IMG/VR virus record: IMGVR_UViG_3300012954_000033
Span: 1 to 33,880 of that record
Strand: one strand, 5' to 3'
DNA length: 33,880 nucleotides
Origin: a virus
Below the pieces are notes generated by a model that saw only the letters and a list, made by a program, of their open reading frames with translations, did no database searches and was not told where the DNA came from. Positions within the stretch are counted from its first letter, which is position 1; each line of letters begins with the position of its first letter. A program made the translations under genes and the position numbers. Below are positions 5,239 to 31,894 of this stretch, piece by piece.

Positions 5239-8200
5239 ATGTCGCATTTTGAAAGAAAGTTGCAAATCAATAAAATTATTGAGAGTCAACTTCCAGAATT
5301 TTTAGTTGCCGAATTTCCCAAAGCGGTAGAATTTTTTAAACAATATTACATTTCACAAGAGAGTCAAGGTTCTCCTGACGATTTAATTAATAATCTTGAC
5401 AGATATTTAAAATTAGATAACTTAATTCCAGAAGTTATTATTGGAAAAACTACTCTCTCTGGAGACGTTACCTCTTCGGATACGAGTATCACCGTATCTT
5501 CAACTAAAGGATATCCAGAAGAGTATGGTCTTTTAAAAATTGGTAATGAAATTATTACATATACCTCAAAGACTGATACTCAGTTCTTGGGATGTATTAG
5601 AGGATTTTCAGGTATTGATGGATATACTAGTAATATTGAAAAAGATTTTTCCAATGTAAACAAACAGACAATAAATTTTTCTGATACTGAAGCAGAATCT
5701 CACACTCAAGGGGATAATGTATCTAATTTAAGTTCATTATTTCTGCAAGAATTTTATAAAAAAATTAAAATTGCATTTGCTCCAGGGTTTGAAAACCAAT
5801 CTTTTGTTTCTGATTTAGATGTTGCAAACTTTATTAGACAGATAAAAGATTTTTATCAAGGCAAAGGTATTGCAGAATCTATAAAAATTCTTTTTACAGT
5901 TCTTTATGGGGTTAAAGCAGATGTTTTAGACCTAGAAACTAGACTTATTAAACCTTCAGGTGCAGAATTTATTAGAAGAGAAGTAGTTGTTGCTGAGATT
6001 ATTTCTGGCGATCCATTTCAATTGGAAGGTCAAGCAATTTATAGATCACTTGATGACTCTACAATTCCTATTGCTACGGCATCTGTATCTAATGTAGAAG
6101 TTTTTACTAGGGATTCAAAAACATATTATAAACTCGAACTCTTTGTAGGATTTGATGACAACTCAAGTTTTGAGAATGCTTTCATTATACCAGGATTTTC
6201 TAAGGTAATAGAAACTGTTTCTGTTGGTGCAGATGTAATTACTGTTGACTCCACCATTGGATTTGATAGTTCTGGAACTATTATTTCTGGAAATAACACT
6301 ATTAAATATACATCAAAGAGCATAAATCAATTTTTTGGATGTACTGGCGTTACTGAAGTAATTAATCCAACAGATGAGATTAGATCTGAAGTATTCGTTT
6401 ATGGATTGGGTAGTGGAGACTCTAATAACAGAGTAGATATTCGTTTAACTGGTGTTTTAAATAATTTTGTAGAAATAGATAATATTTCTCTGTTGGAAGA
6501 GGGAGAAGAAATTAGAGTATTATCTACTGGCGAAAATATTCGAAATCCAGAACGTAATCGCTCATATAAAGAAATTTTTGCTAACTCTTGGATTTACAAT
6601 ACAAGTTCAAGATATAATGTTGAGTCTATTAATGGTTCAACGTTCACATTAACTTCTGAAATTGATAAGTCAAGTTTAAAAGTTGGAGATACCATTGACG
6701 TATTAGTTGGTAGTTCTGAAACGGTATCTAGAAGTAATGCCACAATTACATCAATCAATACTACACTCAATCAAATTACAGTTAGTAATTTGGGCACATT
6801 CACTGCAAGTTCTACTGTTGATTACAGTATCAGAAGAAAAATTGAAAAAGTTACTAGCTCCAACGTTGATCTCACTTTAGGAAACGATAAGTATTTTGCA
6901 AACGTTCAAAATTTATATTGTGATGATAACTCTACGTTTGGATATGTTACATCATTGTCGTTGCCAGAATATGATATTGAAGATATTTTAATCGAATCTC
7001 AACTTGCAAATGGATCTGAAACAAATTTTGATGGATATAGTTCTGTCAATAAAACTTACTCAATATTGAAGTTTGCATCTGATGTAAAATTTATTGATGG
7101 TGATAGAGTTAAATATGTTTCTGATAAACCTCTTGTTGGACTACAGTCTGGAGAGTCGTATATTGTTGATGTTATTGCACCTAATAAAATTAGACTTTAT
7201 ATTTCAAGTTCTTTATTATCATCTGGAACTGATTTTATTGAGTTCAATGCAAATCCAGATACCTCTGCAACACATACATTTACATTATTAACTCAAAAAT
7301 CAAGAGTAATTTCACCAGCACCAATTTTAAGAAAATATCCTCTCAATAGAACTATCACAAATGCAGAAAATTCTGATAGAGGGTCTAGTCACATTGGACA
7401 ACTTATAGATGGTGTTCAAATTTCAAGTCCTAAGTCTAATGACAAAGTATATTTTGGACCATTAACAGATTTTGAAGTGTTTAATGGTGGTATGGATTAT
7501 GATGTTATCAATCCTCCACAATTAGATATTACAACTGGTGTAGGTTCATCTGCTCTTGTAGAACCAGTTATAATGGGTTCTGTATCTGAAGTTTTAGTTG
7601 ACCCACAAAATTTTGATGTTAGTGGAGTTTCTGCAATAACTTTAAAAGGTGCCAATGGTAGCGGATGTATTTTAGAACCTATTGTTGGAGATAGATTTAG
7701 AATATTAGAATTTGATAGTAGAGCACTTGTTTTGGGTGGTGGTATTGATAGTAATGATGAAACTATAACATTTCTCAAACCACACAATTTATTACAGTTC
7801 CAAAAAGTAACTTACAATTCAAATGGAAATGTAGAGATTGGTATTGGTGATTTTCAAGACTCTTCAAATGATATTGATAATAGACTTGTAACTGGAGATG
7901 AATATATTATTAGGTTGGTCAACACATCAACCATCAAACTCTTTAATAATTTTTCAGATGCTTCTTCTGGTATTAATACGATTGGATTTAGTACTGCAAC
8001 TACGGAAAGTGGTATACATCAGTTCAGAACTATTCCAACACCATCTCTGAGAAAAATAAGAGTTGTAGAACCAGGTTCGGGATATCAACATAGAAAACTT
8101 AGAGTAAAGTCTTCTGGAATATCTACTCAATATAATAAGATAACCTTCAAGAATCATGGATTCAATGATGGAGACATCGTTGAATATTCCACAGAAGAAA

Positions 8201-11200
8201 CGCGAGAAGGTAATCGACGAATTGATGGCATCTCGACAAATCCTGATGTTCAATATTCAATTCAAAAACTTGATAATGATAATTTTAGATTAATTAATGT
8301 TGGAGTTGCTGCAACACTTGATAATGATTTAGTAAGATCTAAATTTGTAGAAATATCTGGTATTGGTTCAGGATATCATGTTTTCCAGTACCCACCAATT
8401 ACAGTATCTGCAACTGTTTCCTTTGGTTCAACTTTAACTGGCACTCTTAATTTTACACCAATTGTTACTGGACCAATTGTAGACGCTTATCTCTATGAAC
8501 CTGGTGCAGGATATGGTTCAACAGTATTGAATTTGCAGAAGCAACCAATCGTTAGTGTTAGGAGTGGGAAACTTGCACAATTAAATCCAATTGTATCAAA
8601 TGGAAGAATTATTCAGGTCCAAATATTGGGTTCTGGAAAAGAATATTTTTCTACTCCAGAATTAATAGTTGAAGATACTAGCAATTTTGGTTCTGGTGCA
8701 ATATTGAGACCAGTAATTGTTAATGGAAGAATTGATGACGTAATTGTTATTAATGAAGGTGTTGGATATAACCCAAATACAACATCAATCAGAGTAAAAC
8801 CAAGGGGATCTGGTGCAATATTTAATACTAAAATTAGAAGTCTGTCCGTAAATGATGCAGAAAGATATGCAGATTTTTCTATACTAAAAAATAATAAAAT
8901 ATTTGGAGTTTTAAAAGAAAATGCTTCTGAAAATGGATTGGAGTACTCTGTTTATGGATATTCTGAAGATTTAGCAGATGTCTTTGATGATAATTTAAAC
9001 ACTAATCACTCTAAGATTATTGGTTGGGCATTTGATGGCAATCCAATCTATGGACCATATGGATATACTGATGCTAATAATATTCAATCTGGCGTTTCTT
9101 TGATTGTTCCTGGATATTCTGTAGATACATCTTCTGTTTTTGATAGACCAAGTACATCTACATTTGAAGCAGGATATTTTATTGAAGATTACAAGTTTAA
9201 TGATAGTGGAGATTTAGACGTTCACAATGGAAGATTTTGTAAAACTCCAGAATTTCCAAATGGAACCTATGCATATTTTGCAGGCGTTACGACAAGTAAT
9301 ACTGTAAACACACTAGTTCCACTATATCCATATTTTGTTGGAAATACTTTTAAATCAAAACTTGACGAAGATAATTTATACTTAGATCAATCATTTGATT
9401 TTAATAATTCAAATCTGGTTAGAAATGTATTCCCATATAAAATTGCTGATGAAAATGCAGATTATGATTTTATTGATGAGGGATATGAAACTTTCCCACA
9501 AAGAACTTTTGTCACTTCAGTAACTAAAGGTTCTGTAGAAAAAATTGATATTTTTTCTGGAGGTAAAAATTATAAAGTAGGAGATAGAGTTAATTTTGAT
9601 GAGAGTGAAACAGGTGGTTCTGGACTATCTGTTCAAGTGTCTGAACTTGTTGGAAAAGATATTGAAGAAATTAATACGAATTTAGAACAATATGTTGATT
9701 CAGTATTTGTTAGAGATAGTGCTTTCCAAGTGTCTGCATATTTTGAATCTGGATTTGATATCAATAATAATGAAAATATTCTTGTTAGTGGATTAACAAC
9801 ATCAATTCCAAATTTAAAAGGAAGTCATAAAGTAGGCATTTCTTCAGATACCATCGGTCTTGCATCAACAATGTCTTCTCACACCACAAATGGTGGTATA
9901 ACTGAGGATATTTTTGTTGATGAATTAACAAATGTTTCTGTAGGAAGCACAATTATAGTTCACTCAGATGATGGTAGCACTATAGTAGACGAAACCGTAA
10001 GAGTTCTGAACAATTATGGTAATGGAGTTATTAAAGTTAAAAGATTTGGAGATACTGGTATTGCACATAGTCTTAGTAGTGAGATTAATTTAATTCCTGA
10101 TAGGATTAAAATTCAAGCAAAAACTCCAGTTTTCAAATCTTCTCGTTCTAAATTAGTTTATTTTAATTCAGATAATGCAGTTGGATTTGGAACAACTACA
10201 AATAGTGCAATTGAGAAGACTATCACTATTGGTGGTGTAGATAATTTAATTCAAATTCCAACTAGAGCAATATATGTTCCTAATCATGGATTTAAAACTG
10301 GTGAAGAACTTTCATTTAGTATGAATGATAGTCCAGTTACTGCTGCAGATGTTCTCATTGTTTCAAATGAATCAAATTCATCACAATTCAATTTACCTGT
10401 AAATAGAGCTTCTGTAGCAACTGTATACGCCATTAACAAGGGTCCAAATTATATTGGTCTAACAACTCAAGTAGGTCTTTCAACCTTCAGTGAGGGTCTT
10501 TACTTCCGTAGTGGCGGATCAGACAATGCGGAATACCTACTACAAAATAATCCAACCAAAGTTACTGGTGATGTTGATAGAATTATCACTACTGTCAGTT
10601 CATCATCAACCCATGGATTAAAAAATAACGATGTAATTATTCTTGATGTCAAACCAAATACCATTGTTGGATTGGGAACAACAGCAGCAGCAACTGTAGT
10701 TTATAATGAGTCTACAAAGTCACTGCTCATTAATCCTACCGGTATTAACTCTACTGCGATTGATACCTCAACTAATACGATTACTTTTACTAATCATGGA
10801 TTTGAAACTGGTGAAAAGGTCTTTTATGAAAGTACAGAGATTGCATCTGGATTAACTACTGGATTCTATTATACTATTAGAGATAGTAGAAATACCTTCA
10901 GACTTGCAGAAACTCTATATGAATCAAATCCCAAAACAGAAAAAGTAGTTAATATTGTTGGAACGGGTGCTTCTACTCACACTATTAGTAGAATAAATCC
11001 AAAAATCGATGTTGTTAAAAATTCTGACCTTAAATTCTTATTGGGAGATTCTTCTCTTTCTGGATACGAATTCAAAATTTTCTATGATGAAAACTTTAAA
11101 AATGAATTTATAACTTCATATGATAATAGAGAATTTAATGTTGAAAAAATTGGTGTTAGTGGAGTTGGAACTGCATCAATAACTATAAAATATTCAGAAA

Positions 11201-14200
11201 ATATTCCATCTAGACTTTTCTATGCCGTAGAGAAGGGTGGATATATTAGTACAGCGGATACTGATATCAAAAATCATTCGGAAATACGTTATGTAAAGAG
11301 TGAGTATAATGGAACTTATAATATTACTGGTGTTACTTCAACATCATTTGATATCTCTCCATTCAAACTACCATCCGTATTGAAGTATGATGTTGGTGTA
11401 GAATGTGATGAGGCATCTTATAGAACTAAATCCAATACAGCAACTAGTTCTATAGGTGCTGTTAAAATTTTATCCCCAGGATTTAATTATAGTAGATTGC
11501 CACAGTTTGTGGACGTTTCTAGTGATAATGGAGTAAATGCAAACTTAGTAGCAATATCAACATCTATTGGTAAACTCAATAAATTCAGAATTGATAATAT
11601 TGGGTATGCATATCCTTCAGATAAAACTTTAAGACCTGAAGCAGCACTTCCCGCAAAACTCAATATTGACAATCTTGATACTGTTACTGGATTTGACATT
11701 ATTAGTGGTGGATTAAAGTATATTACAGCACCAAATCTTCTGTTATGGAATGATACAAGTAATTTTGTTGCAGATGATTCTTCGTTATTACCAGTTCTAC
11801 CAAATACATCAATTTCAGAAATTAAGCAAATTGCACCAATTCTTGGTTTAGAATCTGAACCACATAGAATCGTGGCAGTAAATAATTCAAATGGTGTTGG
11901 AATTAGTTCTATAGTTTCTGGTGCTAGTGGTGTTGCAACTTGCACATTAAAAACTCCTATTCTAGGATTTACTACGTCACTTTTTGCAGATGGAGATGAA
12001 ATCTTTGTTGAGGGTATTGAATTAATCGATAATGGTGAAGGATATAATTCCGAAAACTATAATTATAGATTCTTCAAAATCGACAGTTTTGTTAACTCAA
12101 ATCCAGCACAACTTACATTCTCACTTGTCAATGAGGATGGAATTGGGTTAACAACTAATCCAGGTATTGCAAAAACAAATCAATCTGGATATGCTACTAT
12201 TGTAAATAAAAAAAATTATCCAAATATTGAAATTCTTCAGTCTAGATCATCATTTGAATTGAATGAAGGTTTATTTGTAGATAATGGTTCTGGATATACT
12301 GAAACAAAAGCATCTATTTCTCTAGTTAGACCAGATTTTGTTAAAACAGTTGGACCTCACAACTTTAACGTTGGTGATAAAATTAAAGGTAAAATAACAG
12401 GAACTATTGCAGAAATTGTATCAATTGGTAGTGATAGAGCTAAGTTCACTATTAATTATTCTTCTAGACAAAACTTAGGATGGAAAGATGATAAAGGTAA
12501 ATTGAGTGAAGATTATCAGGTAACTTCTGATAATGATTACTATCAAAATCTTTCTTATTCTGTTAAGAGTCCAATACCTTGGTCAGTAATGTCTGGTCCA
12601 TTGAATTCTATTGTTCACCCAGCAGGTATGAAGAATTTTGCTGATGTTGGTATTACGTCAGCGGTAGATAGTGCGGTTGGATTAGCAGGATCTACCAAAG
12701 CAATAAGTGTTTTGGATATTTTTAATGAGTCTAAAGTTTGGACTATCAATAACTTTGATATAGCAGTTGATGATGATGTTAGAACACTTTCTTCTGGTGC
12801 CGAGCAATCTAAATTCCTAACAATTGGTAATAGAAAATTAGCAAACTATGCTGAGTGTAGAACAAATAGAGTTCTTTTACATGATGACATTAGTGGTCAA
12901 TTCTCCAGTCAAGATAAACAAGGACAATCAATAGAAATTGAGCAAATTGCAACTATTGATACAAATGTCAGATATTTAATACAAATTACCAATCCAAAAA
13001 CCTTAGATGTTCAACTATCAGAATTAATTGCTCAAACAACGTCTCTTGATACTTATCTGTTTGAAAAAAATCTAGCAACTTCTGCAGGATTATCTACAAA
13101 TACTAATAACAAACTTGGAGAATTTGAACTTGATGTTAATGATGAAATTAAAACATTAACCTTTACTCCAACCAATCCATTCGACGATGATTTGGATATT
13201 AAAGTTATTAAGAGAACATATTCTAATTTTTTCGCAGGTATTGCAACTCAAAGTATTGGATCAATTGATTTAGTTAATTCAAATATTGTTGGAATTAGTA
13301 GTGTAGGAACTGCATCTAGTGAGAAATCACTATATCATATTGATTCTACATCTTCTAATGGTGCATTTATAAGTATTGAAATGATCAATAGATTTGATCT
13401 AGGTGATTTTGTAAATGTTGAGGCATTTATCAATTTTGATGCAACAAATTCATATGTAAGTGAATATTATTTTGACTCTAGTAATCTTTCTTATAGTTCT
13501 TCAAATGTTGGTATTGTAACTACAATATATGATGGTGTTGGAATTGTCACAGTCAGTATTAGAAATCCAGGTATTGATACATCTACTTATGATGTTCGTT
13601 CAAACATTATTGAGTTTACATCAACTGGATCAGACGATACTTATAGATTCTTAAGAAGTGGTCAACCAGCAGGGTCCGAAAGAAGTGCTCTACTTGATTG
13701 TGTATCTGATACTCATATAGGTATTACAACAACTGCTCAATATTCTAAAGATGTTATATCTTCAGTTTCATCACTTGTTAGAGTATCTGTCGGTTCAAGT
13801 TCTGCATTACATCAAGTAACTGCTCTATGTGATGGTACAGAAGTTACTGTTATTCCTGGATTATTTGTAGCAAATACTGGTTCTGCAGGATTAGGTTCTT
13901 TTGGTGGAAAAATTGTAGGAAATGAATTCTTAGTCAATTTTTATCCAGATGATACTTCCGTAAATTATACTACACAAGCATTTAATGAAGTAATCTACAG
14001 AGAAAGTGATTTTGACAATGTACCAGAAACTTTAGTATATAATGCAAGTGAAACAAATATAATATTATCAGCCTTCGATGCTATTAATGGTACTAGAGGA
14101 AACAAGACTGCATTTGATCTGAAATATGAGGGTATTCCCATTTATGAAAAAACTTTCAATCCAGCAGATACAAATACTCTTGATCCAGTAACAGGAATCT

Positions 14201-17200
14201 TCACAATCAATAATCATTTCTTTAATACTGGAGAGGAATTGATTTATACTCCAGGTTCTACTTTTATTGGTGTTGGACAAACTGAAGTCGGTATTGGAGA
14301 AACTTCAAACTATCTTGGAACTGTTGTAGATCAACTTCCAGAAAGAGTATATCCTATTGTTACCAATGCAAATACCTTTAGATTAGCAACAACTAGAGAG
14401 TTTGCAAATGCAGGAATTGCAGTAACCTTCACAAACGTTGGTGAGGGTAATGCACACAAACTTGAAGTTACAAAAAAATTATCCAAAACTGTTATTGGTC
14501 TTGATGGTATTGTTCAACAACCAATTACATTCACACCAGTATCACATGTTCTTGAAAATAATGGATTCTTTAATGTTGCTGGAGTTGGAACAATTCCTGT
14601 AGGTCTCTCAACCTTCAATATTAGTGGTATTTCATCTATAAACCCAAGAGATTTGATTAAAATTGATGATGAATATATGAAAGTTGTTGAAGTTGGTCTC
14701 AGTACTAACGTTGCTGGAGAACTTCTTGGACCAATTAATGGAATTATTCAGGCAGGATCTGCAGCATCATTCAATACCGTATCTGTAGTCAGAGCATCTG
14801 TTGGTTCTACTGCTGCTCCACATAATGATGGCGCAAATGTACAAATTTTCAAAGGTTCATTTAATATTGTAGGATCTAAAGTACATTTTACTGATGCCCC
14901 AACTGGAAGTGCTAGAACAAGGAGAGGTTTAGATAACCTTCCTCCTGTAAAATCATTTTTCTCTGGAAGAACTTTCTTAAGATCTAATTATGATACCAAT
15001 ATGGTATTTGATGATATCTCAGATCAATTTACTGGAATTGGACAAACCTTTACAATGAAGGTTGGTGGTGCAAACACAACAGGTGTTGATATTGGTAATG
15101 GAATATTATTCCTCAACGGTGTCTTCCAAACACCAACTACTATTAATAATCTTGGGAATAACTATTCATTCCAAAATTCTACTGCTGCTGGTATTTCTAG
15201 TGTAGTATTTTCTGGTATTACTTCAGAAAATGGTTCATACATTCAATCAGACTTTGATATTAATCAGAATCAATTACCTAGAGGTGGACTGATTGTATCT
15301 CTTGGTTCAACACCAGGTCTCGGATATGCACCGCTTCATGGTGCAAAAGTTAAAGCAGATTTAACAAATGGTGCCATTACCGATATTGTTGGTGTTAACA
15401 CCTATCGCAAACCTGTAGGTATCACAACCGCAGATTACAATAATGTTACAGGTGTTATTGAAATTGAAACCAGTTCAAATCACTATCTGAAGGGTGGAGA
15501 AAGAGTTCAATTAGTTGGACTACACTTCACATGTGCTCAAGCACACGCTGGTGTCACAACAACAGTATTCCCAGACCATGACCGCTCTTTTGATATTGCA
15601 AGTATTCTCTCTGCCAATAAACTGACTGTTCAGGTCGGACCTAGCACAATTGTTCACAATTATGTTGGATTTGGTAGTGTATTCAAGCACTTCTCACTGT
15701 CTAATGGTTCTGGATATAGAGACCCCGTTTCTATCGGTGTTACTGATTTGGCATTTGAGCATAGATTTGTTCGCTCAGTTTCCGATTCAATCTTTGTTGG
15801 TTCTGCTGGAACTGATACATTCACCGCAACCAACGCAGAATATACATCACCTACAGGTAGACTATTATTAACTATTCCATCTCATGGTTTAGCAGTTGGA
15901 AATCAAATTGGTATTGATACTGGTGCGATTGTCTTCACATGTTCTGAGGATAATTTCTTCACCGAACAACCATATCCAAGAGCAACTGATCCAGTTGCTG
16001 GTATCACCACAGAGGTTATCTCAGTAACTAGAAATACCATTACTGTCGATGTTGGTCCTGGTGGTGGTGCTGGAAGAGGTGCAGAAATTTCTGCAACAGT
16101 TGGTATAGGTGGAACGTTAATCTTTAGTATTGATAATAGTGGTTCTGGATATGTAAATCCAAGAATTCAAATTCCAGAACCAACATATGAAACTATGGAA
16201 GTTGTTGGTGTATCAAGACTTGGTATAGGTGCAACTACAACAACAGGTGAAAACTTATTAATGAATGTTGTGATTGGTGCCGCAAGTACCAATGTTGGTA
16301 TTGGATCAACTCTATTTGAAGTTGAATCCTTTAACATTAGAAGAAGTGGATATGCATTTGAAGTTGGAGATGTATTTAAAGTGGTTGGTCTTGTTACTGC
16401 AGCACATCTTAGTGAACCAATTTCAGAATTTGAACTTGAAGTTGTTGAAACTTTTAATGACAGTATGTCTGCTTGGTCATTTGGTGAGATGAATTATATT
16501 GATAGTATTGAAGCATTCCAGGATGGTTCAAGAAAGAGATTCCCATTAATTTACCAAGGTGAACTTTTAAGTTTTGAAATAGATCCAAATAATGCAGTTT
16601 CAAATGAAATTGATTTGGATTCAATTTTACTCATCTTTGCCAATGGTGTTCTTCAACAACCAGGTTCCTCTTACACATTTGATGGTGGAACATCATTTAT
16701 ATTCAAAGAAGCACCATTAGAATCTGATAAAATTGATATCTTCTTCTATCTTGGACAAGATGGTGTTGATGTTATTACAGTCAATGTCGATGAAACATTT
16801 AAGATTGGTGATGAAGTTTTAGTTAAAAAACATCCAGGTTTCGCATTAACCAAGGATCAATCCCGAGATAGAACAATTCTTGATATTCTTTCTGCCGATA
16901 AAATTGAAACTGACATTTATACCGAACAAGGGATAAATGAGAATGATTTCAAACCAATTAGTTGGACCAAACAAAAACTTGATATGTTTGTAAAGGGAGA
17001 TTTTGTTTATAAAACAAGAGATTCTATCGAACCAAGAGTTCTTCCAACTTCAAAAGTTATTGGTGATGTTAATGAAAATAGTAATCAAATTTTTGTTGAT
17101 AATGCACAATTCTTCAATTATGAAGAAAATAATTATGCTATCGATATCACTACTGTACAAGGATTACTTGTAGAAGGAAAAGATCCAGTTTCTGCTGCAA

Positions 17201-18078: not shown

Positions 18079-18084
18079 ACCCCA

Positions 18085-18092: not shown

Positions 18093-18111
18093 CATAAAAA
18101 ACATATAAGCA

Positions 18112-19671: not shown

Positions 19672-19674
19672 AAA

Positions 19675-22600: not shown

Positions 22601-25600
22601 AATTGCAAGTCATCTACAATCAATATAGGGTAGGTTCTGGTTCAACTACTTTTGGAGATATCTTCACAGTCAATTCGTATACTGCTGAAAGATATAAGAA
22701 TGATATTCCAACGGTAACCAATGGAACTAGAGTGTCTGATCTTTTAGACTTTAGACCAAGAGTAAGAGATTTTGATGCAGAAAATGCAACAATGTCTCCA
22801 TTTACTTATGATGCTAGAGAATTTTTGACACCATACAAATATGTGGTTACTCCTGAAGAAACTACAAGTGTTGGTTTGAGTTATTATTTACCTAGAGTTG
22901 ATTTATTGTCAATTAATCGTCTTGGTGAAGTTGAGGTTATTCAAGGTGAACCTGCAGAAGACCCTCAGGCACCTGATCTTGCTGATGATGCAATGGAAAT
23001 TGCTCTTATAGCATATCCAGCATATCTCTATAATCCAGTTAAAGGTCCTGGAATTCTGTTAAGGGATAACAGAAGATTTACGATGAGAGATATTGCAGCA
23101 TTAGAAGATAGAATTGAAAATCTTGAGGAAGTTACCTCATTAAGTCTTCTTGAACTCAATACTGCTACAGTAGAGGTAACTGATGCAAATGGACTGAATA
23201 GATTTAAATCTGGATTTGTTGTTTCTGATTTTAAAGATAAGTCTCTTGCAGATCCAGTATATACCAGAATGGATATTAATTCAGAACAAAAGATGGGTAT
23301 TTCTCCTGTTGAGTTCTGGTCTTTAAATGCAGAACTAGCATGGGATTCATCTGTTGATGTTGAAAATGATGATCTTGATACTCAAAATTTACCACTATTT
23401 GATAAAAATATTCAAAAAACTGGTGATTTACTAACACTCAAATACACTGAGATTGATTTTCTAAATCAACCACAAGCGACTAATGTTGAAAATGTAAATC
23501 CATTTAATGTTATTGTTTTTGTTGGTGGTGTTCAATTAACTCCACCATCAGATAATTGGACTCGTACAATTTATATTAATCATAAGAGAACAGAATCTAC
23601 TGGCGCTAAATGGGTACAACAAGCAAAAGTTCATAAAGATGTTGATAAAAAAGTTGAATATGTAACTTATAAGAAAGGTCGTGGTAGAAATGAGAAGAAG
23701 ACGAAAAAATTCGTTGATACAATTATTACCAAAACCACTACATATAAACCAAAACTTATAGGACCATCTAAGGAATTTGATTATGTTGAAAATGTTAAAA
23801 TTACTAGTACTGTAGATCCCTTTATGCGTTCTAGGGAAGTATACTTCTACGCAAATGGGTTGAAGCCAAATCAAAAACATTATCACTACTTAGATGGTCA
23901 ACAACCAGATATTATTCCAAAACTGGTTAGCATTGATATGCAGTCTGGCACCTTTAAAAAGAATGAAAAAGTCGATATCTTTAAAGGTGGCAAGAAAATT
24001 GGTCATATGAAGATTAAAGAACCAAATAATAAATTTGGTCAAAAAGTCAGTGAAGTAATTGCATTCAATCCACTTTCTTACGAATCATATACCATTAATC
24101 CATATGATAAAAAGGGTTCACCTCCACCAGAAAATTATTCTGCAACTTCAAAATTAATTAATTTTGATCTCATATCGTTAGCAAATAAAGAAGAATATTA
24201 TGGATATATTACAAATGGTTGTAAAATTGTAGGTAAAACTAGTGGTGCTGTTGCTAAAGTTAAATCTTACAGTTTAATTTCCGATAATTGGGGTGATATT
24301 CAGGCATGCTTCCACTTCCGTGATCCTAATAAAAAACCTACACCACCAATTAAAATTAAGAGTGGAACAAAGACTGTAAAAATTACTGCTGTTCCTCCAG
24401 GTCTTAATCCACTCCCCGGTTCTACTTCAGGAGCATCTTCAGCTACTGGTACCTACAGTGGTTCTGGAGTAATTGTTACACAAGAACAAGATTTTGTTCA
24501 GGTCAGAAATCCACCCAAACCAAAAGCAAAGAAGAGTAAGGTTGAGGTTAAGATAAAAGCAGCACATAGAGATCCTCTTGCACAAACTTTCCTTGTTGAT
24601 GGTACTGGGATATTCCTCACCTCATTCGATTTATTCTTTGCAACTAAAGATCCTAAGAAAAAAATCTTTATTGAACTTAGAACAGTAGAATTAGGTACTC
24701 CTACAAATCTACTTGTTCAAGATTTTACTCAAATTGCATTGAATCCTAAGGATATTAAAGTTTCTAGTGATGCATCTGAACCAACAAATGTTAAGTTCTC
24801 ATCACCTGTATATCTTGAAGCAGATAGAGAATATGCAATTGTTATTCTTGCACCTTCTTCCGATAAGTATGAAATGTGGACAGCGACCATGGGTCAAAAA
24901 ACTGTTCAATCGGCAAATCTTCCAAATTCGGAAAATGTTGTTGTTTCTAAGCAATACATTGGTGGTTCTCTGTTTAAGTCTCAAAATGGTACAATTTGGA
25001 CTCCAAATCAGTATCAAGATTTAACTTTTAAACTCAAAAAAGCAGAGTTTGTTGAAAAGGGTACATTAATTGCATATAATAGTGGCATCGGACCTAAAGG
25101 TTCAAATGCTTCAGATCTTCCCAAAAATCCAATTGAATTACTTCCAAGAAAGTTAAAGGTAAGTTGTGAAGGTGCAACCGCTGCCGATACCACAAACTTT
25201 GTTCCAGGTACTATGGTCGGAATTCAGAATAACGACGATTTGTACGGATTTATTGAGAAAGTTGGTGGTGGACTCGCTACGGGTACAAATTCTGGTCAAA
25301 TCGCTAATCCTGGTATTGGATATAGTGGTGGTGTCACTCCAGACTTAGTAAGTCTTTATACCCTCACGGGTAAAGGAAGTGGAGCAACTGCCAAAGTAAC
25401 TACAAATGCTGGTGGTGAAGTTACTGAAATCGATATTCTCACTAGAGGTGAAGGATATGCAATCGGTGATTTATTGGGAATTACAACAGCGCATGTTCAA
25501 AAAGGAACAGGTGCGATTTTCGCAGTCACCAATGTTGGTGTTACTAGTGCATTATATCTTACTAACGTACAAGGTGAACATTTCCCATCATCAACACGTT

Positions 25601-27057
25601 TGATGAGATTTACTACAGATTATGACGTGTCAACAAAGACACTTGGATCTGCAAACTTCAACACTGCAACAAATAATCCATCAATTATTATTGATGAAAA
25701 ATTTGATGGCAACGTCATGAAGATTGTTCAATACAATCATGCACATCACGGTGCAAATAATGATATTGAAGTTGTTGATGTGAAACCAGATAGAGAAAAG
25801 ATAAAACTTACTGCTAATTTGGGTCAAAATGCAACTGTTGTTTCTATTGCAGACACCAGACCATTTTCAAATTATGAAGGAATTTCTACTTCAGGTGGAT
25901 ATGCACAAATTTCAAATGAAATTGTTGAGTATTCTGGAATTAATAATACTTCAGGTAATGCTGGAACTTTGACAATAATTAGTAGAGGCGTTGATTCTAC
26001 AACACAATCAGCACACACTACTGATGATTTTATACAACCATATGAAATTGGTGGAGTTAATTTGAGAAGAATTAACACTACTCACAATTTACCATCAACT
26101 TACTATACTGATGAAAATGATAATATTGATCATTATCATTTAAGATTTAATAGAAGCACTCCTTATAGTAGTAGAAATCTTGGTGGAAGTAGACTCAACT
26201 TCAATGGACAAAAAGCAGTTGGTGGTAATAGTGTTGGAATTTCACAAAATTATCAATTCAGTTCTCTGACTGCACAATTCAATTATATTACTCCAGGAAA
26301 AGGAACTAAAGTAAAAGCATCTGTAAGAACCATTTCTGGAACTAGTGCAGGTGGAAATGAAGTTTCATTCATAGATCAAGGTTACGAACCAATCACTATT
26401 AATAAAGTGCATCATTTTGATACACCTAGATTGGTTGCATCCAAGGTAAATGAAAAAGAACAACTCACAAGTTTACCCAAAAATAAATCACTAACTTTAC
26501 GTGTTGATTTTGAATCAAAAGATAAGAACTTATCTCCAGTAATGGATATTCAAAATGCAACTTGGGTTCTTGGTAGAAATAAAATTAACAATCCAATTAA
26601 TGATTATGTTGCAGATGCAAGAGCAAATACTCTAAATGATGATCCTCATAGCACATGCTTTGTTACTAGAATGACATCTCTTGAACAACCTGCAACTAGT
26701 TTGAAAGTTCTTATTGCAGCATGTGTTCAGGAAAATGCAGATATTAGAGTCTTATACAGACTTCATAGAGCAGATTCTGCAGAAATTGATCAATCATTCA
26801 CACCATTCCCTGGATATGACAATACTAAGGATACTGATGGCGATGGATTTGGAGATCAAATTATTGATATAACTAAAAATAGTGGCAGACCAGATGCTAA
26901 AAATACAGCGAATGATCCAGAAACTTTCTCAGAGTATCAATTCTCTGTAAATAATCTGGAGCAATTTGATGGATTTAGTATTAAAATTGTTACTTCTTCA
27001 ACCAACGAGTCTACTCCAGTTAAACTGAAAGACTTTAGATGTATCGCACTTGCATAA
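19675..27057 (+). CDS. DUF4815-type giant virion protein, probable fibre or baseplate appendage (2460 aa)
   Basis: The start NVNPYYDDFDKDNNFYKVLF with GYPVQARELTGLQSVLQNQI is the signature opening of DUF4815 proteins, known from tail-fibre-like proteins of large phages. The domain appears to run to about residue 1030 (LLDFRPRVRDFDAEN). A helical RDIAALEDRIENLEE segment (about 1138-1152) follows, then a very Lys-rich stretch (1303-1366). Next come PFMRSREVYFYANGLKPNQK and AHRDPLAQTFLVDG (from about 1629), a beta-sandwich-like block to about 1800, two Gly-x-Gly-Tyr units (1874-1942), and a C-terminal domain with a DTDGDGFGD loop (2386-2394) ending in DFRCIALA. It fills the place of T4 gp9-gp11. 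Cell contact is inference; a virion role is very likely. Confidence 0.85.
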   Translation: MPQKTNLNVNPYYDDFDKDNNFYKVLFKPGYPVQARELTGLQSVLQNQIESFGTHMFKEGSMVIPGGITCDNEFTTVKINETHLGIDVSIYLDALVNANNGKGTEVRGSDTDITATIKGYVLPPSLDADEITLFVKYDSTAEDGETDVFADSEILIIEENVSYGNTTLNAGDTILSLVSNDATKIGYAIGVSAGVYFIRGYFVDIPTSQIVLDLYDNQPSFRVGFEVIEEVINSDQDGSLNDNAKGYTNFAAPGGDRLKISTRLTKKSLQDFNDTNFIELVRINEGEIKKLEAKTQYNFIKDYFAKRTFEESGNYAVDSFTVDVLDSLNNETGGAGLFSENQLTDEGNKPNEDLMCVKVSAGTAYVKGFDVDLVGSTIIDVPKPRTTKSIAQTKVPFSMGSLLKVNNVAGVPYISIGSQQGQNTFDNVIQLFDERRNVATNNAGTGRKIGEGRVYWYGVSDASYTGATTSWDLYLFDIQTYTDVYVSSNISENATIPLGSYVRGLSTGATGYIDSKRSPLCMSLTQTSGTFQKGEQVIVNEIEEYTFGVTAVEEFTVEDIKSVYQDSTNLDTNIQRDFIADTILYEKTLPDFSKNDKLIITGGSDASVPGRFFAGVTGIKTGAILKYQSTASSDPNFNVISAINADGNELTLISPDSSVTGICVNNVTNSESNFSLMVPKIHASQQSGLYSELPRFNVSSVDLSNAELTITRQITGVETDSNGELLLTVADFLGSSVGINSVFFEAFDAERYSIHYSDGNTEDLTSDQFTYGATQIEFKGLTVNQSNVVVIGTLRKTDITHKTNDYVRSNIVSITRTTGKSPNTAGLTTSRFYGLRIEDKDISLNTADVVDVVAVYESTNNEAPTLDSLTFATGLALNQNAIIGEKIVGQNTRAVGQIIETTATEIKYVALNDNEFAVGEEVVFKDSSLSLIVQEVTPGSYIDRTDNYILNKSHTNQIVDYSRIVRREGFAIPTRQLQVIYNQYRVGSGSTTFGDIFTVNSYTAERYKNDIPTVTNGTRVSDLLDFRPRVRDFDAENATMSPFTYDAREFLTPYKYVVTPEETTSVGLSYYLPRVDLLSINRLGEVEVIQGEPAEDPQAPDLADDAMEIALIAYPAYLYNPVKGPGILLRDNRRFTMRDIAALEDRIENLEEVTSLSLLELNTATVEVTDANGLNRFKSGFVVSDFKDKSLADPVYTRMDINSEQKMGISPVEFWSLNAELAWDSSVDVENDDLDTQNLPLFDKNIQKTGDLLTLKYTEIDFLNQPQATNVENVNPFNVIVFVGGVQLTPPSDNWTRTIYINHKRTESTGAKWVQQAKVHKDVDKKVEYVTYKKGRGRNEKKTKKFVDTIITKTTTYKPKLIGPSKEFDYVENVKITSTVDPFMRSREVYFYANGLKPNQKHYHYLDGQQPDIIPKLVSIDMQSGTFKKNEKVDIFKGGKKIGHMKIKEPNNKFGQKVSEVIAFNPLSYESYTINPYDKKGSPPPENYSATSKLINFDLISLANKEEYYGYITNGCKIVGKTSGAVAKVKSYSLISDNWGDIQACFHFRDPNKKPTPPIKIKSGTKTVKITAVPPGLNPLPGSTSGASSATGTYSGSGVIVTQEQDFVQVRNPPKPKAKKSKVEVKIKAAHRDPLAQTFLVDGTGIFLTSFDLFFATKDPKKKIFIELRTVELGTPTNLLVQDFTQIALNPKDIKVSSDASEPTNVKFSSPVYLEADREYAIVILAPSSDKYEMWTATMGQKTVQSANLPNSENVVVSKQYIGGSLFKSQNGTIWTPNQYQDLTFKLKKAEFVEKGTLIAYNSGIGPKGSNASDLPKNPIELLPRKLKVSCEGATAADTTNFVPGTMVGIQNNDDLYGFIEKVGGGLATGTNSGQIANPGIGYSGGVTPDLVSLYTLTGKGSGATAKVTTNAGGEVTEIDILTRGEGYAIGDLLGITTAHVQKGTGAIFAVTNVGVTSALYLTNVQGEHFPSSTRLMRFTTDYDVSTKTLGSANFNTATNNPSIIIDEKFDGNVMKIVQYNHAHHGANNDIEVVDVKPDREKIKLTANLGQNATVVSIADTRPFSNYEGISTSGGYAQISNEIVEYSGINNTSGNAGTLTIISRGVDSTTQSAHTTDDFIQPYEIGGVNLRRINTTHNLPSTYYTDENDNIDHYHLRFNRSTPYSSRNLGGSRLNFNGQKAVGGNSVGISQNYQFSSLTAQFNYITPGKGTKVKASVRTISGTSAGGNEVSFIDQGYEPITINKVHHFDTPRLVASKVNEKEQLTSLPKNKSLTLRVDFESKDKNLSPVMDIQNATWVLGRNKINNPINDYVADARANTLNDDPHSTCFVTRMTSLEQPATSLKVLIAACVQENADIRVLYRLHRADSAEIDQSFTPFPGYDNTKDTDGDGFGDQIIDITKNSGRPDAKNTANDPETFSEYQFSVNNLEQFDGFSIKIVTSSTNESTPVKLKDFRCIALA
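25296..25500 (+). repeat. Gly-x-Gly-Tyr modules in the DUF4815 protein
   Basis: Two units, 'QIANPGIGYSGGVTPDLV' and 'TEIDILTRGEGYAIGDLLGI', joined by GKGSGATAKVTTNAGG, residues about 1874-1942. They match the gp14 and giant-protein copies in spacing and in the GSGA.A linker. Confidence 0.55.
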
Positions 27058-27058
27058 T

Positions 27059-27449: not shown

Positions 27450-27452
27450 ATA
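27445..27452 (+). promoter_or_regulatory. T4-type late promoter for the fibre-like genes
   Basis: An exact TATAAATA overlaps the stop codon of the 59-residue gene and lies 26 bases before ATG 27479. A second, imperfect TATAAATG at 27474-27481 contains the start codon itself. The first site is well placed to drive 27479 to gp16. Confidence 0.72.
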
Positions 27453-27478
27453 TTTCTACAATCCTGAATTGTATATAA

Positions 27479-27706
27479 ATGGCTGAAATTAAAGTCAGAG
27501 TAGGAGCTAAACCAGCAACAAAAGTTATTTCTTCACTTGCTGGTGCTCAAGGTCTGTCTTTGGCTGAGCTGAGTGATGTTAATGCCTCAACCTTATCTAA
27601 TGGCATGGTTCTTGTATATAATAGCAGCACAAAAAAATGGGACGCGACCTTGACGCTCACCCCAGGTGCAACGCAGAATTTAGACATCAACGGAGGAAGC
27701 TTCTAA
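27479..27706 (+). CDS. Small fibre-associated structural protein (75 aa)
   Basis: The product starts MAEIKVRVGAKPATKVISSL, continues with a LAELSDVNASTLSNGMVLVY segment and ends in NLDINGGSF. The 'LSDV....L.NGMVL.Y......W' pattern recurs in fibre and baseplate-appendage proteins of marine T4-like phages, so a virion role is likely. It is the first gene after the late promoter and lies two bases before the 566-residue fibre-like gene. It shares a Gly-Gly-Ser/Thr-Phe end with that protein. The GGAGGA coding for its last glycines is the ribosome binding site of the next gene. Confidence 0.7.
   Translation: MAEIKVRVGAKPATKVISSLAGAQGLSLAELSDVNASTLSNGMVLVYNSSTKKWDATLTLTPGATQNLDINGGSF
27692..27697 (+). 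promoter_or_regulatory. Ribosome binding site inside the end of the upstream gene
   Basis: GGAGGA, ten bases before ATG 27708, is formed by the two Gly codons of the upstream protein's GGSF end. It is a full Shine-Dalgarno core and supports the ATG at 27708. Confidence 0.65.
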
Positions 27707-27707
27707 A

Positions 27708-29408
27708 ATGGCAAGTATTATTAGGATCAAAAGATCCTCAGGCACATCTAAACCATCAAGCCTGCAGTGGGGTGAATTTGGATATGTAACTGGTATTGGT
27801 AGTTATGGGGGAACTAATCAATACAAGGATAGAATTTTCTTAGGAGATGATGGCACTAATGCCAATCCAGTAGGTGGATTCTATTATACCTCCATGATGG
27901 AGCATACACCTGGTTCTATTCAAGGTGTTCAGAATACAAGAAATTCTGATAATGGTGTTGTTGCTGTTCTTGCTCCATCATCAAATACAGGTTTAGGTGG
28001 AGCAGATTCGCTTAAAGTTGATCAATGGAACGTAGATAATATTAGAATTGATGGAAATGTAATTTCATCAACAGACACTGATGGTGATATTGATCTCGAC
28101 CCTAATGGTACTGGTGAAGTTCATATTCCAGATGATACATTCCTGTCATTCGGTAATGATAAAGATGCAAAAATTGAATATGATGAAGATGGTGTTAATC
28201 AGTTAACCTTCACAGGTGCTGATGTAAGAATTAATATTGCAACAGAATCTGATACTAAAGATACTGGCGCTCTGATTGTTGAGGGTGGCGTTGGTATTGA
28301 GAAAAACCTCAATGTTGGAGGAAATCTCAATCTTGAAGGTGGTGCTGTCATTGATGACATCAAAATTCAAGATAATGTAATATCTTCATTATCTGATAGT
28401 AGCGATACCCTTTACTTAGATCCATTTCCTGATGGACTGAGTAATGAAGGTACTGTTATTATTAAAGGTAGTCTTCAAGTTGATGGCACAACAACATCAA
28501 TCAACTCAACTACTTCGACATTAAATGATCCAATTTTCCATATTGGTGATTTGACCAGTGATAGAACCGTAATGACAACGGTTGTTTCTGGTGTTAGCAC
28601 TATCAGATTGGATTCTGTTGTTGGTATTAATACTGGTGATATTGTATCTGGTAATGCAGGTCTAAATGCTGGTGCTGCAAACACAGTTTCATCATATGAT
28701 ACTGCAAATAAAATTATTACTTTACAGGATGCTACCATTTCTGGTATTGCAACTGCAAGTCAATTAATTATCACTCACGCATTTGATACTAATACCGATA
28801 GAGGTATTTCTTTTGCATATAATGATAGTCAATCACAAGTTGGTGGTGGAACTACTGGTAATAAGACAGGTTTCTTTGGATATATTGATCAAGGAAATGT
28901 TGGAAGTGGAGCAACAAATAGATCTTGGACTTATATTCCAGAAGCTACTGTTGCAAATAGTCTTGTAAGTGGAACAAGAGGATACTTAGATATTAAAGGT
29001 ATCTATTATCAGACAGGTGATTTTAATCACAATGGAATGGTTTATTTTGACGTTGATGGTCTTCAAACCTCAACGGGTGCTCCATCATCACCTGTAAATT
29101 CTTCAAAACAGTTTATGACTGCAGTAACAAAGAGGGTTCTTAATCTTCCTAGTAACGTTACTTTAGCGAAAGGTGACATTGTTAAGCAAGATACCTCAGA
29201 CGCTTATGGTGTAGTTGAAAGTGCTGTGAGCAATGCCGCAGTAGTTCCACTTGTTGGTGTTGAAGGTACATTTAATGCATCAAATAATTTGAGAAAAGAA
29301 GGTGCAAACGGATCTATAGATGACTTATCATTATCTCCCGATAGTGTTGGTGTAATATATACTGATAGACCACAATGGACTGAAACCCTAGATGGAGGAA
29401 CTTTCTAG
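27708..29408 (+). CDS. Tail-fibre-like virion structural protein (566 aa)
   Basis: The N-terminus (IRIKRSSGTSKPSSLQWGEF, then GYVTGIGS...KDRIFLGDDG) is of the type that opens many cyanophage fibre-like proteins. It is followed by a 'STDTDGDIDLDPNGTGEVHI' unit (about residues 120-142) and an 'ALIVEGGVGIEKNLNVGGN' unit (about 188-206), which are common beta-repeat elements of phage fibres. The C-terminal third is a separate domain ending WTETLDGGTF. No chaperone or peptidase motif was seen. It occupies the T4 gp11/gp12 place and probably forms a trimeric baseplate or neck fibre; receptor binding is plausible but not shown. Confidence 0.75.
   Translation: MASIIRIKRSSGTSKPSSLQWGEFGYVTGIGSYGGTNQYKDRIFLGDDGTNANPVGGFYYTSMMEHTPGSIQGVQNTRNSDNGVVAVLAPSSNTGLGGADSLKVDQWNVDNIRIDGNVISSTDTDGDIDLDPNGTGEVHIPDDTFLSFGNDKDAKIEYDEDGVNQLTFTGADVRINIATESDTKDTGALIVEGGVGIEKNLNVGGNLNLEGGAVIDDIKIQDNVISSLSDSSDTLYLDPFPDGLSNEGTVIIKGSLQVDGTTTSINSTTSTLNDPIFHIGDLTSDRTVMTTVVSGVSTIRLDSVVGINTGDIVSGNAGLNAGAANTVSSYDTANKIITLQDATISGIATASQLIITHAFDTNTDRGISFAYNDSQSQVGGGTTGNKTGFFGYIDQGNVGSGATNRSWTYIPEATVANSLVSGTRGYLDIKGIYYQTGDFNHNGMVYFDVDGLQTSTGAPSSPVNSSKQFMTAVTKRVLNLPSNVTLAKGDIVKQDTSDAYGVVESAVSNAAVVPLVGVEGTFNASNNLRKEGANGSIDDLSLSPDSVGVIYTDRPQWTETLDGGTF
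29394..29400 (+). promoter_or_regulatory. Ribosome binding site inside the fibre-like gene end
   Basis: GGAGGAA is encoded by the Gly-Gly-Thr codons before the stop and lies 13 bases before ATG 29414. The spacing is long for an ideal site but no better one exists. Confidence 0.5.
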
Positions 29409-29413
29409 AAAAT

Positions 29414-29605
29414 ATGGATAATCAAGGTGAAGTGGATGTAAATGTTCTTGTTAAACTTTATAATTCAAAATTAGCAGCATTAACAAATCAAAATGTTCTT
29501 CTTGAAGCAAAACTAACAACCTTGTCTCAAGATTTTCGCGAAAAATATGAAGAACTAAAACAGGAGAATGCTGAATTAAAATCAAAATTAGAAGTACAGG
29601 AGTAA
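29414..29605 (+). CDS. Small coiled-coil protein in the wac position (63 aa)
   Basis: Almost the whole chain is heptad helix: VLVKLYNSKLAALTNQNVLL, then AKLTTLSQDFREKYEELKQE and NAELKSKL. It lies immediately before gp13, where T4 has the whisker protein gene wac (fibritin, a trimeric coiled coil of 487 residues). Size and lack of a foldon-like end argue against true fibritin, so this may be an assembly helper or a minor neck component. AGGAG near its stop serves gp13. Confidence 0.7.
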   Translation: MDNQGEVDVNVLVKLYNSKLAALTNQNVLLEAKLTTLSQDFREKYEELKQENAELKSKLEVQE

Positions 29606-29606
29606 T

Positions 29607-30452
29607 ATGGCAAAACCATCAACTAGACAAGGTTTAATTGACTATTGCTTACGTCAACTTGGTGCTCCCGTTTTAGAAATTAACGTGGACGATGATCAAA
29701 TTGATGATCTAGTTGATGATGCCATTCAATATTTCAACGAACGTCACTATGACGGCGTTGAGAAAATGTATTTGAAATATCAAATAACACAAGACGATGT
29801 AGATCGTGGTCAAGCAAAAGGTACAACTGGTGTTGGTATTGTAACTACCACTGCTACATCCACATCTATTAGTGGATATGGTACTACAACATCAAGTTTT
29901 TACGAAACATCCAACTTCATTCAAGTACCAGATTCTGTTATTGGTATTGAAAGAATTTTTAAATTTGATACTAATAGCATTTCTGGTGGAATGTTTAGTA
30001 TTAAGTATCAACTTTTCTTGAATGACTTATATTATTTTAATTCGGTTGAACTTTTACAATATGCAATGACTAAGAGTTATCTAGAAACTATTGATTTTCT
30101 ACTAACTCCAGATAAACAAATTAGATTTAATAAGAGGCAGGATAGATTATATCTAGATATTGATTGGGGTTCTCAGGAAGTGGGTGAGTTTATGATTTTG
30201 GAATGTTATAGAGCATTAGATCCTGATTCATTCACACAAATTTATAATGATACTTGGATGAAACAATACCTTACTGCTTTAATTAAGAGGCAATGGGGCA
30301 GAAATCTTAGTAAGTTTAGAGGTGTTAAACTTCCTGGTGGAATTGTATTGAATGGAGCAGAAATTCTTCAACAAGCAGAATCCGATCTATCAGATATTAA
30401 ATCAAGAATGATGTCTGAATATGAATTACCACCCTTAGACTTTATTGGATAA
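29607..30452 (+). CDS. gp13: Neck protein gp13 (head completion)
   Basis: The 281 residues are close to T4 gp13 (309). The family's N-terminal segment is clear: TRQGLIDYCLRQLGAPVLEI, then a DDDQIDDLVDDAIQYFNERH acidic helix and GVEKMYLKYQIT. The rest includes WMKQYLTALIKRQWGRNLSK and GGIVLNGAEILQQAESDL, typical of the C-terminal part. gp13 and gp14 form the neck joining filled head to tail. AGGAG at 29598-29602 precedes the ATG. The stop overlaps the gp14 start as TAATG. Confidence 0.94.
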   Translation: MAKPSTRQGLIDYCLRQLGAPVLEINVDDDQIDDLVDDAIQYFNERHYDGVEKMYLKYQITQDDVDRGQAKGTTGVGIVTTTATSTSISGYGTTTSSFYETSNFIQVPDSVIGIERIFKFDTNSISGGMFSIKYQLFLNDLYYFNSVELLQYAMTKSYLETIDFLLTPDKQIRFNKRQDRLYLDIDWGSQEVGEFMILECYRALDPDSFTQIYNDTWMKQYLTALIKRQWGRNLSKFRGVKLPGGIVLNGAEILQQAESDLSDIKSRMMSEYELPPLDFIG

Positions 30453-31894
30453 TGGCCCTAAATCCCTTTTTTCTTCAAGGCACACAGTCTGAGCAGAGAC
30501 TTGTTCAGGATATAATTAATGAACATCTACGATTTCATGGTGTAGAAGTAACATATATTCCAAGAAAATTTGTAAATAAGAAGACTGTTATTGAAGAAGT
30601 ACAATCATCTAAATTTGATGACAATTTTGCAATTGAAGCATATGTTAATACATATGATGGATATGGTGGTGCAGGAGATATCCTGACAAAGTTTGGTGTG
30701 AGTATAAGAGATGAATTAATACTTACAATTTCAAAGGAAAGATTTGAAGATTTTATTGCCCCATTTATGGCGGGAATTGATGACGGAACAGAAGATAGTG
30801 AATTACCAACACCAACGAGACCTAGAGAAGGTGATTTAGTTTATTTTCCTTTAGGACAAAGATTATTTGAAGTAAAGTTTGTAGAACATGAAGATCCCTT
30901 TTTCCAGTTAGGAAAAAATTATGTTTATCAATTGAAATGCGAACTCTTCGAATATGAAGATGAAATCATTGATACAACAATTCCTGAGATTGATACTCAG
31001 GTTCAAGAAGAAGGCATCATTTCTACTCTCAAACTGATTGGTATTGGAAGAACTGCACTTGCAACTGCAATCATACAAGGAACAGAGTCCTCAGGATATG
31101 TTAGAGAAATATTCTTGGATAATGATGGTTCTGGATATACTTCAATACCAACAATTGGATTCACAACATCACCAACAAATCAAACTGGAGATACACCAGA
31201 AGCTATAGGAATTCTCACTACTAAAGGTGGCGTTACATCTATTGAGAAAATTTTACTTATCAATGCTGGTGCTGGATATACTGTTGCACCTACTATCACA
31301 ATCTCTGGTGGAGGAGGAACTGGTGCTGCAGCAACATGTAGCATCGTAACTACTGGTCAAGGTGTAATTAGATATACTATTACTGATTCTGGTGTTGGAT
31401 TTGGTACTGCACCTGTTGTTACAGTCACTGCACCCCCATCTAGTGGAATTAGTAGTACTGCTGTTGGTATCGCATCTATTGGTAGAGATTCAGGTGGTGA
31501 CAATATACTTAAAGCAATCTTTGTTGAAGATACTGGTAGAGGATATAGCTCTGCCCCAACAGTTACTATTGCAGATCCAGAAACACTTAGTGGTCTTGGA
31601 ACATATATTTTCAATGAAGTTATTGTTGGAGAAAGGTCCAAAACTGAAGCAAGAGTTAAAGAATGGGATCAAGACACAAGGATACTCAAAGTATCCAATG
31701 TTAGTATTGGTTCCACTCAACTTGGATTCTTCCCAGGAGAAACTATCAAAGGAAAAGACTCTGGAGCAGAATATCCAATGCTATCCTTCATTCAAGATGA
31801 TATATACAATGAGTATACTGAAAATGATATATTTGAATCTGAAGCAGATGATATCTTAGACTTCAGTGAATCTAATCCCTTTGGAACATTCTAA
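30452..31894 (+). CDS. gp14: Neck protein gp14 with inserted repeat domain
   Basis: The first 180 residues follow gp14: NPFFLQGTQSEQRLVQDIIN, then VEVTYIPRKFVN, GDLVYFPLGQRLFEVKFVE and FFQLGKNYVYQLKCELFEYE. T4 gp14 has 256 residues; this one has 480. The extra part is four Gly-x-Gly-Tyr/Phe units (about 217-377) and a GERSKTEARVKEWDQDT / FPGETIKGKDSGAEYP module (about 386-445), before a short acidic end FSESNPFGTF. The neck function is secure; the insert would project from the neck ring. The gene is coupled to gp13 and gp15 by TAATG overlaps at both ends. Confidence 0.92.
   Translation: MALNPFFLQGTQSEQRLVQDIINEHLRFHGVEVTYIPRKFVNKKTVIEEVQSSKFDDNFAIEAYVNTYDGYGGAGDILTKFGVSIRDELILTISKERFEDFIAPFMAGIDDGTEDSELPTPTRPREGDLVYFPLGQRLFEVKFVEHEDPFFQLGKNYVYQLKCELFEYEDEIIDTTIPEIDTQVQEEGIISTLKLIGIGRTALATAIIQGTESSGYVREIFLDNDGSGYTSIPTIGFTTSPTNQTGDTPEAIGILTTKGGVTSIEKILLINAGAGYTVAPTITISGGGGTGAAATCSIVTTGQGVIRYTITDSGVGFGTAPVVTVTAPPSSGISSTAVGIASIGRDSGGDNILKAIFVEDTGRGYSSAPTVTIADPETLSGLGTYIFNEVIVGERSKTEARVKEWDQDTRILKVSNVSIGSTQLGFFPGETIKGKDSGAEYPMLSFIQDDIYNEYTENDIFESEADDILDFSESNPFGTF
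31101..31580 (+). repeat. Four Gly-x-Gly-Tyr units inserted in gp14
   Basis: The units are 'IFLDNDGSGYTSIPTIGF', 'ILLINAGAGYTVAPTITI', 'YTITDSGVGFGTAPVVTV' and 'IFVEDTGRGYSSAPTVTI', 35-50 residues apart with GTGA/ISS linkers. This is the cleanest array of the repeat in the window: each has a beta strand, G-x-G-Y/F, then (A/I)P.(V/I)(T/G)(V/I/F). Confidence 0.7.

Follow-up and report, generated by a model that had tools for sequence, protein, structure and literature searches.

Exchangeable accessory domains shape the meeting of phage and host, and those known to date are mostly immunoglobulin (Ig)-like: the Ig-like domains of tail sheaths have been described as horizontally exchanged and proposed to bind surface carbohydrates weakly (PMC9230969), while T4 Hoc carries strings of such domains (PMC10385173). 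Here we analyse a different repeat, the GxGY unit, in a 33.9 kb virus record (IMG/VR IMGVR_UViG_3300012954_000033, positions 1 to 33,880; the whole stretch is hereafter the window) that represents a fragment of a T4-like cyanomyovirus, a marine cyanophage, with the gene order of Prochlorococcus phage P-SSM2 (gp25, gp6, a giant protein at the gp7 position, gp8, a DUF4815 protein, small genes, gp13, gp14 and gp15). Four proteins of the window, all encoded on the + strand, carry the unit: the gp7-position giant, which is a baseplate wedge protein by PHROG profile match, the wedge protein gp8, the DUF4815 protein and the neck protein gp14, the last being 67% identical to its P-SSM2 counterpart.

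Comparison with T4 separates host from addition in two of these proteins. Window gp14 shares with T4 gp14 (PF11649; 9mkb, 9lu4) both the domain covering its residues 3-188 and the gp13-gp14-gp15 order, and the T4 chains align to residues 3-177 only; whereas T4 gp14 (256 residues) and P-SSM4 gp14 (308 residues) are both devoid of units, the window protein has some 200 extra residues inserted after the T4-like neck core and ahead of a C-terminal domain. Window gp8 belongs to the T4 gp8 family (PF09215; 1n7z), and its predicted model matches the 1n7z fold with an E-value of 1.1e-9, so that the units have been added to a gp8 core: T4 gp8 has about 334 residues, the window protein 519, with two units inserted at residues 213-300. 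The initial annotation was thus right that both T4 proteins lack the units.

To compare the units across proteins, separate alignments were built for gp14 residues 186-392, giant residues 1028-1240 (profile A2) and 3980-4080 (A5), gp8 residues 208-318 (A3) and DUF4815 protein residues 1855-1965 (A4), with relatives drawn from viral contigs and reference phages. In hhalign comparisons every cross-protein pair scored between 31.3 (gp14-gp8, the weakest) and 90.8 (gp14-giant), compared with at most 21.9 for 20 column-shuffled versions per pair. The top score belongs to A5 against gp14 (P = 3.4e-15), and A2 reached 59.3 against gp14, 62.0 against gp8 (8e-10) and 51.9 against the DUF4815 protein; A4 in turn scored 57.4 against the second giant segment, 52.5 against gp8 (4e-9) and 39.2 against gp14. 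An external-only profile, trained on units from cellular proteins and other viral contigs and run against decoys amounting to 21 times the search space, found all four gp14 units (43.2, 27.2, 20.4 and 13.4 bits) and four giant units (21.4, 15.1, 12.1 and 8.1 bits) above the best decoy (7.5 bits), "external" here meaning outside the window's close relatives, as some of the viral training proteins are relatives of gp8, gp14 or the giant in other phages. PHROG_701, which was built independently, covers the giant, gp8 residues 219-310 (E = 1.1e-11) and gp14 residues 199-374. Judged by these sequence profiles, the units of the four proteins are homologous, as the initial annotation had proposed, and the searches returned more than low-complexity Gly/Tyr segments.

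The unit spans about 40 residues and consists of a strand a, the GxGY turn, a short strand b with the consensus PTVTI, a GxGA linker and a strand c, and tandem units follow one another at a median spacing of 40 residues (n = 557 tandem pairs). AlphaFold models were made for gp14 and gp8 and compared by strand order. The gp14 block (residues 186-392, 61 sequences) is predicted as a repeating three-strand fold with a mean predicted local distance difference test (pLDDT) score of 85.1 and a predicted template modelling (TM) score of 0.74, where strands of three kinds (long, about 4 residues and 8-10 residues) alternate regularly and c runs by a tight turn into the a strand of the next unit; tandem copies would therefore probably stack into a β rod or string. 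The gp8 model has a pLDDT of 70.5 overall and about 78-87 in the unit region, whose strands (223-228, 236-245, 248-257 and 260-271) follow the same a-b-c-a order as in the gp14 model. Foldseek returned no PDB fold match for the gp14 block: the best E-value was 0.18, and the listed hits had TM scores of 0.23 or below. A PDB sequence search likewise gave nothing credible. In BFVD, the block matched unrelated viral proteins with E-values down to 7e-8, including tail fibre, P22 gp10-like and YHYH proteins; clean two-unit superpositions gave 2.2-2.5 Å over 87-90 columns, and the large root-mean-square deviations of longer alignments are expected because strings of units vary in their inter-unit angle. 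Two proteins of Sylvanvirus, a giant virus of eukaryotes, also appear among these fold matches (A0A3G5AH46 and A0A3G5AH06).

A wider search of genomes and viral contigs with a consensus repeat query recovered units in genomes of many bacterial phyla, in some archaea and in many viral contigs. After masking of the units, 155 sampled unit-bearing proteins fell into 60 host groups unrelated by BLAST, of which 20 include viral and 44 cellular proteins, although the sample was drawn with the canonical consensus and is hence uninformative on abundance. Pfam names among the hosts include tail sheaths, a T7-type nozzle, gp6, gp8, neck gp14 and an XM1 gp53-type cement protein; a lambda-like tail tube carries the units inside its domain, another tail tube at its C-terminus, and further named hosts are SusD, DUF2589 and multicopper oxidase proteins. 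The host Pfam domains are interrupted or flanked by the units, and the unit itself falls under no Pfam or NCBIfam model in the window proteins and sampled unit-bearing proteins that were scanned. Nearly all cyanophages examined carry units in gp7-type, gp8, DUF4815 or gp14 proteins, and most sampled Kyanoviridae genomes do so in all four. In cells the module appears patchy: only 3 of 99 sampled Bacteroidota genomes had a match, one of them the seed genome. The repeat is therefore not, as first suggested, a family special to these phages and their neck, wedge and appendage proteins, and since it is so widespread, with bacteria and archaea among its carriers, finding it in four proteins of one virion is not in itself evidence for a single common decoration partner.

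Several individual carriers deserve mention. A tail-sheath protein of the cyanobacterium Nostoc foliaceum (L313:2861-4972) holds six near-perfect tandem units between the parts of its sheath domain. The commonest unit-bearing group of the viral sample is a protein of about 750 residues with up to six units (L339 and about 29 similar viral loci), P22 gp10-like going by the BFVD names of similar matches. SusD-family lipoproteins of Niabella, Sphingobacterium and others (L265 and eight similar loci) have two units inside the SusD_RagB domain, where a link to glycan uptake is possible, and very large multicopper-oxidase proteins (L294 and L318, one of them from an archaeal Methanoperedens metagenome-assembled genome) contain 18 and 7 GxGY strings.

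The orthologues of gp14 record how the module may have moved. Units are missing from gp14 of P-SSM4, T4 and a Kuttervirus; S-RIM12 and ACG-2014e have two, lying inside the C-terminal domain between FTVGE.I.G and AEVKSW; and the window, P-SSM2, S-SM2, P-TIM68 and others have four, lying before that domain. The GETI.G..SGA domain of window gp14 (31598-31786) accordingly flanks insertion site A and is split at site B in S-RIM12 and ACG-2014e. The varying count per orthologue (0, 2 or 4 units) and the existence of two sites argue that the module moves; the two sites point to independent insertion, and loss may instead explain the unit-less P-SSM4 protein. Together with the 60 unrelated host groups, the two sites bear out the earlier suggestion of spread by module exchange. 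Selection on the units differs from that on their hosts: by the Nei-Gojobori method, median pairwise dN/dS (nonsynonymous to synonymous substitution rate ratio) in gp14 is 0.055 for the core, 0.268 for the units (about five times the core) and 0.234 for the C-terminal part, and in gp8 it is 0.097 for the core, 0.222 for the units and 0.153 for the third part, values of which only the contrast counts, the pairs being non-independent and some dS high. Purifying selection thus constrains the units less than the assembly core, which is what a peripheral module would be expected to show.

The distribution of units within the window follows the initial annotation closely (Table 1). Its four gp14 units (31101-31580) are present between 31085 and 31579, with profile matches at 31085-31177, 31235-31345, 31346-31465 and 31514-31579 that comprise three G.GY strings and one GVGF unit in the motif scan. 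Its "about a dozen" units in the giant correspond to 11 G.GY strings, of which 8 fit the strict pattern G[SAVIT]GY, together with degenerate forms (such as GGMDY at 7471, GGKNY at 9544, GFNY at 11461 and GGLKY at 11692). Only about four giant units exceed the decoys as single sequences, and detection in this protein needed chunked targets and anchored profiles: a hidden Markov model of the four gp14 units alone, or a gp14-only full-length profile, was too weak to reach the giant when run against whole proteins. In the DUF4815 protein (25296-25500) the two expected units lie near 25282-25344 and 25408-25485; they are borderline in the single-sequence external-only scan (7.3 bits against the decoy's 7.5) and rest on the profile-profile evidence. 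For gp8 (18772-19010) the position held and the letters did not: two units are found at about 18763-19010, reading GSNY and GKDY rather than GxGY. These are unseen in the single-sequence external-only scan, and the sequence-based call draws on the profile comparison, the PHROG_701 match and a gp8 orthologue (L268) whose canonical GTGY units align exactly on the degenerate ones of the window protein. No unit was found by profile scan in gp6, gp25, gp13, gp15 or the 27708-29408 protein of the window. A gp6 wedge protein from another viral contig (L380:1798-3843) has two near its C-terminus.

Table 1. Unit-bearing proteins of the window and the segments in which units were located
Feature	Position	Strand	Evidence or remark
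gp7-position giant	5239-18078	+	PHROG baseplate wedge
Giant, first unit, degenerate, FEVFNGGMDY	7471-7572	+	Motif scan; weak
Giant, unit VVEPGSGY	8038-8085	+	6.2 bits external-only, 10.6 bits giant-family profile; near decoy level alone
Giant residues 1028-1240, cluster GSGY, GAGY, GKEY, GVGY before YHYH domain	8320-8958	+	Profile A2
Giant, unit ILSPGFNY and next strand	11437-11556	+	8.1 bits external-only, barely over decoy (7.5)
Giant, two units IDNGEGY, VDNGSGY	12007-12306	+	15.6 and 11.2 bits giant-family profile; second 7.7 bits external-only
Giant, unit LSNGSGY	15664-15744	+	15.7 bits giant-family profile
Giant, unit IDNSGSGY	16099-16161	+	16.5 bits giant-family profile
Giant residues 3980-4080, two units GSGY, GFGY	17176-17478	+	Profile A5; 21.4 and 12.1 bits external-only
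gp8	18112-19671	+	519 residues; Pfam PF09215, E = 4.8e-15
gp8 residues 208-318, two degenerate units DKPGSNY, TAGGKDY	18733-19065	+	Profile A3, PHROG_701, AlphaFold
DUF4815 protein	19675-27057	+	Two units
DUF4815 protein residues 1855-1965, units ANPGIGY, LTRGEGY	25237-25569	+	Profile A4
gp14	30452-31894	+	Neck protein
gp14 core, T4 neck-protein domain, host of the insert	30452-31006	+	Pfam PF11649, E = 8.3e-31, residues 3-188
gp14 residues 186-392, four-unit tandem block	31007-31627	+	External-only profile, AlphaFold
gp14 C-terminal part, with most of the GETI.G..SGA domain	31628-31891	+	Alignment with P-SSM4, S-RIM12, ACG-2014e

Two further features adjoin the units. In the giant, the GxGY cluster lies immediately upstream of a YHYH domain (residues 1236-1356, window 8944-9306, Pfam E = 7e-27), a predicted metal-dependent hydrolase (PMC7824862). 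The C-terminal domain of gp14, present also in the unit-less P-SSM4 protein, defines a second possible shared module, F..GE.I.G..SGA.., with weak matches in the DUF4815 protein (24211-24270 and 22318-22482; 11.9 and 7.1 bits against a decoy of 6.7); as a module outside gp14, it is a weakly supported sequence candidate.

The units are copies of one homologous, exchangeable plug-in repeat, and we consider it rather probable that this repeat serves as an accessory surface module, in a manner comparable to the Ig-like domains of phages. Virion and extracellular proteins that are otherwise unrelated have acquired it, multiplied it and lost it, either in loops or where domains meet; this phage carries it in two wedge proteins (gp7-like and gp8), in the DUF4815 protein and in gp14, whose two halves it separates. 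Display on the virion exterior is suggested by the tolerance of assembly-protein hosts for units in loops and termini and by the extracellular type of several cellular hosts. There, the units could make weak, low-specificity contacts with host envelope polymers or with neighbouring virion proteins, which by analogy is their most likely use, with a bracing or spacing role not far behind. The glycan adhesion raised in the initial annotation is a putative role. In a broader formulation, to which we give an even chance, an uncatalogued β-repeat fold without a solved structure would rank with the most promiscuous building blocks of tailed-phage virions and of some bacterial surface proteins. It would form a second system beside the Ig-like domains, a general-purpose adhesive or spacer that is inserted in sheath, tube, neck, wedge, nozzle and cement proteins alike.

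The strongest competitor, which we regard as possible though clearly the less probable reading, is a purely structural one, in which rigid β rods lengthen and brace the oversized baseplate wedge and neck of cyanophages and bond to neighbouring copies, with no host contact. Several observations weigh against the accessory surface reading: unit dN/dS lies well below 1, which denotes purifying selection, with no sign of diversifying selection or of an arms race on the gp14 and gp8 units as a whole; the unit-free C-terminal part of gp14 is equally relaxed; and nearly all sampled gp14 relatives of the group have four units, a constancy that fits a fixed structural role equally well. Purifying selection and the proteins of about 3,500-5,200 residues at the gp7 position throughout these phages likewise suit a spacer. 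A neck that works in orthologues with no units at all, the faster evolution of units relative to the core and the occurrence of the module in cellular proteins such as SusD lipoproteins speak against a purely structural role.

Duplication confined to this phage lineage, with gp7-type units copied into gp8, the DUF4815 protein and gp14 of one ancestor and no exchange with other genomes, is unlikely: carriage by four proteins in most sampled Kyanoviridae does indicate that spread within the lineage is old, yet canonical units occur in unrelated phages, bacteria and archaea, and the gp14 insertion sites differ. Less likely still is a divergent Ig-like or fn3 domain missed by profile libraries. 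The units are all-β, tandem and housed in the same kinds of virion protein as Ig-like domains, and a few weak Foldseek matches are Ig chains; but they have three strands per roughly 40 residues rather than seven per 80-100, and we rejected this identity on that strand count, on the lack of any Pfam Ig, Big or fn3 match and on the PDB fold and sequence searches described above. Convergence of low-complexity Gly/Tyr/Thr segments without a homologous family, for which the simple letters, the short single units and the decoy-level scores of several giant units taken alone might plead, is highly improbable and was rejected, as column shuffles keep the composition and lose the signal, the external-only profile finds the units, the predicted repeating fold is confident and the order strand, turn, PTVTI, GxGA is conserved.

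A second kind of accessory module, uncatalogued and found in abundant marine myoviruses, allows their oversized neck and baseplate proteins to be read in part, and the existence of unit-less orthologues makes a clean deletion comparison possible. It also explains an annotation hazard. The unit is built into PHROG_701, 19630, 708, 5342, 4406, 22827 and 1922, profiles of giant virion, wedge, tail-fibre and hub proteins, which for that reason match any carrier, although they are whole-protein clusters named by other functions and not models of the repeat; unit-bearing proteins consequently match families called baseplate wedge, head closure Hc2 or tail fibre irrespective of their identity, and PHROG_701, 19630, 708, 460 and 438 match unrelated proteins (L259, L279, L313 and L316, for example a DUF2589 protein and a tail tube) only via their units. 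A Pfam-type model of the unit would remedy this. We found no description of the motif, or of the module in cyanophage proteins, in the open-access literature, and to our knowledge none exists. The GxGYxYP family of putative glycoside hydrolases (PMC4071793) has only the letters GxGY in common with the repeat and is unrelated; it was rejected on the absence of a Pfam match in any unit-bearing protein scanned, the four window proteins having been searched at E-values up to 1.

The closest described system is that of the phage Ig-like domains (Big_2, HYR and fn3 types), which are likewise small tandem β-modules; they spread horizontally, sit within or at the ends of unrelated virion proteins and are dispensable in orthologues. 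The GxGY repeat resembles them in being inserted into or appended to unrelated virion proteins and in varying between orthologues; it differs in its three-strand unit of about 40 residues built around the GxGY turn, which matches no Pfam Ig model or PDB fold, and in its occurrence in cellular proteins as well.

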